From: Synergistaceae bacterium
GTDB lineage: Bacteria; Synergistota; Synergistia; Synergistales; Synergistaceae
Direction of reading: 5' to 3'
DNA length: 35,499 nucleotides
Assembly (NCBI GenBank): GCA_031289955.1
Contig: JAITOL010000167.1
Span: forward strand, 1 to 35,499
Below the pieces are notes generated by a model. That model was not told where the DNA came from and made no database searches. It saw only the letters and a program-made list of their open reading frames with translations. Of this stretch, positions 4,924 through 6,581 are shown in pieces; the first letter of the stretch is position 1, and every line of letters starts with the position of its first letter. A program made the translations under genes and the position numbers.

Positions 4924-5340
4924 CTATCGTATCCAATAAAATTCAATATTATCACTCTGGTCTATCACATCGAATTCATGGTGGTCAGAAGTCACCAAAA
5001 TTCCGCCTGAAACGAATGTTTCCGCCAAAGCTATCGAGTCGGCGAGCGAGATTTTATAAGATACTTTCAGCCGCCCAGCTTCGGCAAAAACAGCGTCACT
5101 GATTTCGGAGACTATCGCGATGGGTAATTTCTTAATTTTATCGAGCGTTTCATCCGCCACTTTCTTTCCATATGAACGATAAGCGTCGTAATATACTTCA
5201 AGCAGGTTTAACTTGTTCATGCGGATTTTCATTTCTCCTACGCAAGCTTCATTTAGAATTGCTCTGACTGTTTGGGCTCCGTCCTCTCCTGTCAACAATG
5301 CGATGAGCGCACAGGCGTCTAAAACATACTCGCGATTCAA
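4924..5340 (-). CDS. PIN-domain toxin, VapC-like ribonuclease
   Basis: A 138-residue PIN-domain protein, the class of metal-dependent RNases that act as toxins of VapBC modules. The acidic active-site residues are in place: Asp8 in YVLDACAL, Glu48 in LNLLEVYY, Asp101 in SLADSIAL and Asp119 in VTSDHHEFD. The frame starts with TTG at 5340, which overlaps the antitoxin stop by four bases (TTGA), so the two are translationally coupled. Length matches VapC. The target RNA cannot be predicted. It lies in an AT-richer segment with an ATPase gene remnant, which suggests a mobile or accessory patch. All catalytic acids are present, so it should be active. Confidence 0.9.
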   Translation of the reverse strand: MNREYVLDACALIALLTGEDGAQTVRAILNEACVGEMKIRMNKLNLLEVYYDAYRSYGKKVADETLDKIKKLPIAIVSEISDAVFAEAGRLKVSYKISLADSIALAETFVSGGILVTSDHHEFDVIDQSDNIEFYWIR

Positions 5341-5564
5341 ATTTCAAGTTCCTTTTCGGTCTGTTTGCGCTCTGAGTATTTATCAGCGGACATTTTACCG
5401 TCCGAGAAAATGCCGAATAAATCCTTAGTGCAATCAATCGGCTCCGAAATCGGAATCAAGCTGATGACCCCTTCTTCTTCCGTATGAACCTTTATCCTGT
5501 CTGTCCGCATAAGTCGGAGCAACGGTTCAGGCAACGTATTTGCTTTTATGATAATATCATTCAT
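5337..5564 (-). CDS. VapB-like antitoxin partner of the PIN toxin
   Basis: A 75-residue acidic protein directly upstream of the PIN toxin, overlapping it by four bases. The frame is open further upstream to 5609, but the ATG at 5564 has an AAGGAG site at good distance and is the better start. The N-terminal half (MNDIIIKANTLPEPLLRLM, EGVISLIPI) looks like a short beta-rich DNA-binding part, and the C-terminal tail (KMSADKYSERKQTEKELE) resembles the toxin-wrapping tails of VapB-type antitoxins that end in a K-x3-E-KE-E pattern. The call rests mostly on gene order, size and this tail. Antitoxins of this kind usually repress their own operon. Confidence 0.78.
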   Translation of the reverse strand: MNDIIIKANTLPEPLLRLMRTDRIKVHTEEEGVISLIPISEPIDCTKDLFGIFSDGKMSADKYSERKQTEKELEI

Positions 5565-5624
5565 GTCACTCAACTCCTTCGCAACTATATGCCCGATATA
5601 TTCACACACATTCTATCTCAAAAC

Positions 5625-6137
5625 TCACCCTCCCGCGTACATTAAAAATTCCCTGATGTTAAAATGCTTTATACCATTGCGGCTCATGTCGAATTCATCC
5701 ATAGAAACGACATATTTGGGAAAATTGTCGCCGATCTTCTCCAGAGCGCCGAATTCTCTTTCGATAGTGCTTTCGGAGGCGAGCAGATAGGCAACCTGCA
5801 CGTACAGCAATTTCCCTTGACGTTCCGCTACAAAGTCCACCTCGGCGTCGCCTATTTTCCCCACAGTGACCTGATAGCCGCGTCGCCTCATCTCCAAATA
5901 GACTATATTTTCCAGGACGATTTCGATGTCCCTCTGATTTTTCCCATAAACCGCCTCTCTCAGGCCGTGATCGGCGGCGTAATATTTCTCGTTTACCGAG
6001 AGCAGTTTTTTCCCGGCCAGGTCGCGCCGTTTGACCCTGTAAAACAAAAACGCGTCCTCGCACGCTTTAATGTACGATAGAACCGTCTCCGGCGACACGT
6101 TTCTCTCCTTAGTTCTGTCGCCCGCAGTATATAGCGG
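5625..6137 (-). pseudogene. AAA/DUF4143 ATPase, 5'-truncated remnant
   Basis: The frame encodes only the C-terminal DUF4143 region of the AAA_14/DUF4143 ATPase family, about 157 residues of a protein normally near 400. Conserved parts are RNVSPETVLSYIKACEDAFLFYRVKR, LENIVYLEMRRRGYQVTVGK, EVDFVA, YVQVAYLLASE and the end SMDEFDMSRNGIKHFNI. The entire N-terminal P-loop ATPase half is missing. A GTG at 6098 has a chance ribosome-like AAGGAGAG before it, but family similarity continues upstream of it (KERN) until a stop at 6138-6140, so the gene was cut, not newly started. The cut falls at an AGCGGTCATAACCG element. The remnant might still make a peptide from GTG 6098, but ATPase function is lost. 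Confidence 0.75.
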
Positions 6138-6146
6138 TCATAACCG
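6132..6146. repeat. Degenerate second copy of the palindrome core
   Basis: TAGCGGTCATAACCG matches the core of the palindrome at 6172-6186 in 14 of 15 bases. The two copies are offset by exactly 40 bases, near four helical turns. It lies at the break point of the truncated ATPase gene. Confidence 0.6.
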
Positions 6147-6160
6147 TCGGTCAATCTCAA

Positions 6161-6200
6161 ATAAATATTTTTAGCGGTTATAACCGCTAAAAATATTTAT
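6161..6200. repeat. Perfect 40-bp palindrome with no spacer
   Basis: Bases 6161-6180 and 6181-6200 are exact reverse complements; the centre reads AGCGGTTATAACCGCT and the flanks are AT-rich. It lies between the stop of the membrane-protein gene (6204) and the ATPase remnant. On neither strand does a T run follow, so it is a poor terminator; an operator or recombination site is more likely. Confidence 0.85.
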
Positions 6201-6203
6201 CGC

Positions 6204-6581
6204 TCAGTCTACCATGTCGTTGTGAAAGCAATAAATAACGAACGCGAATATAAAAGGGAAAACAATTAAAAGCGCTAAGCTGCTTCCACTGGATAGCTGT
6301 CGTCCATAGGATCCATAGCCTTCGGCTCTGAAAATAGCGGTGAAAACCGACAGGAAAACCATATACGCGATAGAGAGCAGAACTCTTCCAGCCGGAGAAT
6401 AATTTGTGTGAAAAAGATTTACATAAATAAGAACGATCCCAGCAAACAGATCGACGACGATGGCGCGCAAAATAGCGGGAAAACTCGATAATCCAAAGAA
6501 ATCGACGACGAACGCGTAAAAAAATGCGCAGGATGCGGCGACGCACGCAATCCAATAGGCTATTTTCAATTTTAGGAGCAT
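6204..6581 (-). CDS. Small polytopic membrane protein, unknown function
   Basis: A 125-residue hydrophobic protein with about four membrane helices: roughly residues 5-28, 34-57, 64-86 and 100-120. No enzymatic or transport motif is visible and I recognise no family. The ATG at 6581 overlaps the end of the radical SAM gene by ten bases, so it is expressed as the last gene of that run by coupling; there is no good ribosome site of its own, and a TTG at 6569 is an alternative start. The perfect palindrome begins four bases after its stop. Base composition is more AT-rich than the genes to its right. Confidence 0.6.
   Translation of the reverse strand: MLLKLKIAYWIACVAASCAFFYAFVVDFFGLSSFPAILRAIVVDLFAGIVLIYVNLFHTNYSPAGRVLLSIAYMVFLSVFTAIFRAEGYGSYGRQLSSGSSLALLIVFPFIFAFVIYCFHNDMVD

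Follow-up and report, generated by a model that had tools for sequence, protein, structure and literature searches.

PDC-S01 is listed in PADLOC as a single-gene phage-defence candidate, covered by models PDLC04786-04792. It has been described as the fusion of an ATPase to a PD-(D/E)-X-K member and ranked fourth by abundance among the defences of prokaryotes, with 29,494 bacterial and 9,986 archaeal instances, experimental validation being pending for most PDCs (PMC12988326). Thermus thermophilus TT_P0211 (AAA_14, DUF4143), which by description has the same domain pair, is among the genes changing expression with plasmid DNA (value 6.6), in a work where its regulation was not studied (PMC4406477). 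The literature that we searched on DUF4143, COG1373 and PDC-S01, with few subscription papers in scope, mentioned no operator or regulation and described no mechanism for PDC-S01, which is still a candidate.

Tandem operators have long been known to mediate autoregulation. Lambda CI and the C proteins of restriction-modification systems are phage or plasmid repressors with autoregulatory tandem operators of this kind, while archaeal Orc1/Cdc6 initiators recognise origin boxes, with no promoter dyads and no PD-(D/E)XK-like domain. Here, we describe a locus from a Synergistaceae bacterium, within a window (the whole stretch of DNA analysed) of 35,499 nucleotides (GenBank assembly GCA_031289955.1, contig JAITOL010000167.1, positions 1 to 35,499). 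As in the lambda CI and C-protein operators, its dyad sites stand at a fixed spacing and one of them overlaps the core promoter of the linked gene; unlike in those systems, the protein presumed to bind them combines an AAA+ ATPase with a PD-(D/E)XK-like domain, and the box of the half-site changes from one gene to the next. What appears to be new is the presence of tandem operators in PDC-S01, where the frame is conserved, the boxes are private and the spacing depends on the branch. The features of the locus are the following:

5625 to 6098, minus strand: C-terminal fragment of an AAA_14-DUF4143 (PDC-S01) ATPase, starting at about residue 247 of a 404-residue orthologue
6105 to 6110, minus strand: Shine-Dalgarno-like AAGGAG, 6 nt before the GTG at 6098 and near the deletion junction
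6126 to 6131, minus strand: -10 hexamer TATACT, with a 17-bp spacer to the -35
6132 to 6146, minus strand: putative proximal operator O1, CGGTTATGACCGCTA, inside the -35/-10 spacer
6149 to 6154, minus strand: -35 hexamer TTGACC, in ungapped alignment with TTGATT, TTGAAA or TTGTTT of orthologues
6161 to 6200, no strand: putative distal operator O2, dyad axis at 6180/6181, centre GGTTA/TAACC, flanked by A/T tracts

Palindrome, core copy and promoter

The two halves of O2 (6161-6180 and 6181-6200) are exact reverse complements with zero loop, and form the perfect 40-bp palindrome that the preliminary description had reported. It is by far the longest zero-loop palindrome of the window, the runner-up having arms of 9 bp, and perfect palindromes with arms of at least 20 bp are expected by chance about 4e-8 times per window and about 3e-6 times per 2.65-Mb genome. 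The second element of that description, a 14/15 match to the palindrome core at an offset of 40, was reproduced at O1, and the axes of O1 and O2 are 40 bp apart. The same-face arrangement drawn from this offset holds only approximately, because, with 10.5 bp to a helical turn, 40 bp correspond to about 3.8 turns and not 4.0.

On the minus strand, the region carries a single sigma-70-like promoter (TTGACC-17-TATACT), with O1 within its spacer and O2 40 bp upstream of O1. This complete promoter, to which the pair of sites belongs, was absent from the preliminary description. As a match alone it is not significant (1 found against 1.9 expected in shuffles), and its weight comes from conservation in orthologues. 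When the window was anchored on the -10 hexamer, its promoter aligned without gaps to those of eight intact orthologues (L158-L161, L187-L189 and L204), one from Lachnospira eligens (L189) and three from viral contigs (L187, L188 and L204). The same columns hold in all of them the upstream dyad GTTATAAC, the -35 hexamer and the 17-bp spacer, in which a second dyad is often degenerate. In another record of the L160 gene (L021; protein 64% identical), three TATAAC cores follow each other at exact 40-bp intervals. The ungapped alignment and the recurrence of the 40-bp spacing across the subfamily thus support the earlier proposal, in which the palindrome and its core copy, as putatively cooperative operators, are what is left of the promoter-operator region of a truncated DUF4143 ATPase gene, as far as sequence comparison can tell.

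Literal searches for the core were uninformative, since the operator sequence is not common between genes. The 16-mer core occurs once in the whole 2.65-Mb draft genome at up to 1 mismatch, and its sole other genomic place has 2 mismatches. Across 52 family genomes, one 1-mismatch match was obtained (L003), among secretion-type genes and with no DUF4143 gene nearby. The exact 18-mer core has 7 matches in GTDB for an estimated chance number of about 4, and those inspected include terminators or coding sequence. The genome search that had been proposed beforehand thus returned no further copies at up to 1 mismatch, whereas the layout recurs at the promoters of relatives; a motif occurring only here had been regarded as counter-evidence to an operator, which does not apply since the sequence is gene-private and the architecture conserved. 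The alternative of a recombination or transposition end, also raised earlier, fell with the same search, which revealed no second genomic copy at up to 1 mismatch. A transposon or MITE end and a REP-like repeat were rejected on this single copy as well.

Instead of binding a protein as DNA, the palindrome could act as an RNA hairpin, which would terminate the upstream ORF (6204-6581) or be part of a 5' leader. Its predicted fold is very stable (z = -6.4), and exact core matches elsewhere in GTDB (L012, L013 and L014) resemble bidirectional terminators with T-tails. However, the palindrome lies upstream of the -35 and therefore outside the transcript of the gene, no terminator is called and the stem is followed by AAAAATATTTATTT. 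Mismatches in the inverted repeats of the family have no G-U excess (12 G-T against 12 A-C), and no Rfam family was matched at gathering score, with two sub-threshold miRNA-precursor matches only. We thus consider an RNA hairpin very improbable. The absence of a T run at 6161-6200 agrees with the earlier judgement that a terminator was unlikely, and an intrinsic terminator was discarded there because a GC stem with a T run is lacking and none was called. More generally, for ALTERNATIVES, readings as an RNA structure, a terminator or a mobile-element end were unsupported. In L012, L013, L014 and L016, which come from unrelated bacteria, the 18-bp core arose by convergence in hairpins with A/T tails located beside or between genes, like bidirectional terminators.

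Decay of the DUF4143 gene

The fragment matches PF13635 (DUF4143; E 4.4e-10, profile 44-158) and the PADLOC model PDLC04787 (E 1.3e-62, positions 250-407), the latter being matched over its full length by the intact orthologues (E about 1e-162). In 53 genomes from the same family, the proteins closest to it are intact, 404 residues long and of the AAA_14-DUF4143 type, with 64-71% identity over the fragment. The N-terminal AAA_14 ATPase domain, present in these orthologues, is absent from the window copy. Homology to the orthologue starts at about 6113 (residue 242-247), so that the AAA+ domain and the first two winged-helix helices are missing, and these homology limits would place the deletion junction at about 6108-6120. 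Downstream of the -10, the leader resembles that of orthologues until about ACAGAA and is then replaced by coding sequence. An AAGGAG precedes the GTG at 6098 by 6 nt, and the leader thus seems to have been fused by the deletion to an internal codon: an internal loss of about 246 codons would have joined the promoter, the operators and the ribosome-binding site to the C-terminal part. This deletion could also be an artefact of the draft assembly. As read from its sequence, the window copy is a remnant and not a functional PDC-S01 member: it matches PDLC04787, but its AAA+ domain is deleted, and the anti-phage role of the family is itself a candidate one.

No intact member of the window's subfamily was found in its own genome, where the operators have therefore probably lost their binder and the promoter is probably derepressed. 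The genome contains four intact DUF4143 paralogues, all in other PDC-S01 models (L004, L005 and L006 in PDLC04790; L007 in PDLC04786). The subfamily protein gave no tblastn match to them at E 1e-3, which makes them distant branches. In addition, the genome holds an incomplete DUF4143 copy that matches the family from profile position 174 on only (L008, C172) and a short DUF4143 piece with an in-frame TAG (L010, C36). With the window copy, three of its seven DUF4143 loci look decayed, which suggests a rapid turnover. Two close relatives of the window's subfamily (L162 and L163; G170 and G171) have an in-frame TAG within an otherwise full-length match, a further sign of decay.

Downstream of the fragment, the minus strand encodes a PIN-domain protein (PF01850, 4924-5340). 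Immediately before it comes an ORF of at most 90 aa that matches no family (5337-5609, minus strand). Together (4924-5609), they look like a VapBC-type toxin-antitoxin pair.

Putative operator layout across the family

A survey of inverted repeats was conducted on 135 DUF4143 genes of the phylum, with 141 control genes and dinucleotide shuffles for comparison. An upstream score of at least 10 was reached by 37.8% of the DUF4143 genes, against 10.6% of the controls (Mann-Whitney p 3e-11) and 0.15% of the shuffles. The upstream direct repeats displayed preferred offsets of 32-33, 40-41 and 46. Within the subfamily of the window, 23 of 40 loci have their best upstream direct repeat at 39-41 bp (binomial 1e-22), for a background of 0-4 in shuffled sets and 5/141 in control genes. 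The same offset was found in half (10/20) of the non-redundant held-out viral loci from IMG/VR, gathered after the 39-41 bp rule had been stated. A score combining dyads and repeats exceeded the control 95th percentile in 46 of 62 subfamily loci, the other 16 not exceeding it.

The spacing class tracks the protein tree, with 18 changes against 39.8 when shuffled (FastTree; some forks are weak). Among representatives, a spacing of 39-41 corresponds to PDLC04787, 32-33 to PDLC04786 and PDLC04789, and 46 to PDLC04790. The layout was seen in Bacillota, Fusobacteriota, Bacteroidota and viral contigs. The operators have a common frame, composed of a TA/TA centre, a variable box at +/-3-6 and A-richness (A-tract) at +/-7-11, and their agreement fades past position 11. 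Agreement of the box reaches 0.25-0.34 between loci and 0.59-0.70 within a locus, the latter partly by construction.

Some upstream hairpins have the look of terminators or dispersed repeats and not of operators, including one with 29-bp arms at -153 to -87 of a DUF4143 gene (L044) and those of the AACAGGAACC family at two others (L042 and L031). Long hairpins of this type inflate simple inverted-repeat counts. In the PDLC04786-like branch (L142, L131-L133, L146 and L147; mostly 32-33 bp), a recognisable motif, approximately TAAAA-TGTGATA, is common to several genomes; the operator sequence is therefore more conserved there than in the branch of the window.

Candidate binder

Operators are private to their gene: the window core is unique in its genome, and a second operator tested elsewhere has two genomic copies, both at its own gene. 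In 13 plasmid contexts from several phyla, the neighbouring genes differ each time and the gene is an orphan, leaving the ATPase as the only conserved candidate binder. In many intact relatives, this two-operator layout with private sequences suggests that the protein controls its own promoter.

These sites could alternatively be operators of an unlinked or host transcription factor repressing these genes; bacterial defence genes can indeed have separate repressors, such as RptR (PMC12255303). This is unlikely given that each gene has an operator sequence of its own, different even among paralogues, and that the layout, which tracks the protein tree, is found again in Bacillota, Fusobacteriota, Bacteroidota and viral contigs without a conserved neighbour.

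The orphan status of the gene, whose neighbourhoods differ widely among plasmids and viral contigs, would also suit a self-moving gene whose array serves as a recombination, mobility or segregation site, for instance a cruciform processed by the PD-(D/E)XK-like domain or an iteron- or centromere-like array, and arrays of two or three dyads are iteron-like. On the upstream side, which was the side examined, the arrays nevertheless sit on the core promoter; the core is unique in the genome, and in the close subfamily Gln347 occupies the position of the catalytic Lys. Such a site is accordingly a highly unlikely explanation. All the evidence combined is most economically read as autoregulation by the encoded protein, which we judge probable, with binding of the operators being deduced from sequence.

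The AlphaFold model of an intact viral orthologue (L187; pLDDT 90) is consistent with such a binder. We read from its secondary structure the order of elements of an AAA+, a winged-helix and a PD-(D/E)XK-like domain, the latter with Gln347 for the usual catalytic Lys in the close subfamily. The winged-helix region (residues 213-287) consists of helices at 213-225, 233-242 and 249-261 followed by strands at 265-287; since the window fragment starts near residue 247, its own copy is broken. A PDB sequence search gave no match at E up to 1. The best PDB fold matches are DNA-bound Orc1/Cdc6 initiators, with low TM-scores of 0.3-0.45; those of archaeal Orc1/Cdc6 on origin DNA (PDB 2v1u and 2qby; TM-scores about 0.3) share the combination of AAA+ and winged helix.

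The variable box couples most strongly to residue 250, which stands at the beginning of the recognition helix and ranks third of 356 among pairs below 50% identity. This coupling is exploratory and phylogenetically confounded, its p of 0.0025 concerning a column picked after inspection. Mean coupling to the box is barely higher for the whole helix-turn-helix region (0.24) than for the rest of the protein (0.19), residues 249-250 alone standing out.

Proposed mechanism and significance

Under autoregulation, O1 and O2 would be the two operators of a promoter that once drove a full AAA+/winged-helix/PD-(D/E)XK-like ATPase. The encoded protein, as a dimer or a larger AAA+ oligomer, would bind its gene-private dyad via the winged helix. 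Occupancy of O1 would block RNA polymerase between the -35 and the -10, and would be stabilised by O2, about four turns upstream. Expression would thereby be low and self-limiting, rising once the protein is titrated, displaced or activated. The DNA and its predicted proteins document the dyads and the distance between them, the overlap of one with the promoter, a layout conserved across genomes and phyla, the private sequences and the N-terminal loss; that the sites are bound, cooperatively and with repression as the outcome, is inferred, as is the trigger.

Beyond this, we tentatively propose, as a possible but doubtful extension, that PDC-S01 ATPases are self-insulated DNA-bound switches. 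The N-terminus of the recognition helix (around residue 250) would read the variable box of a private operator, within the shared frame of TA/TA centre, A-tracts and branch-specific spacing (32-33, 39-41 or 46 bp). Paralogues could thus coexist without cross-regulation, and phage activity would release or arm the complex.

The conserved operator layout may offer a handle on PDC-S01, providing a predicted DNA ligand for each protein and the basis of a reporter assay. It predicts that residues of the winged helix set operator specificity, and would account for the long perfect palindromes left behind by decayed copies.
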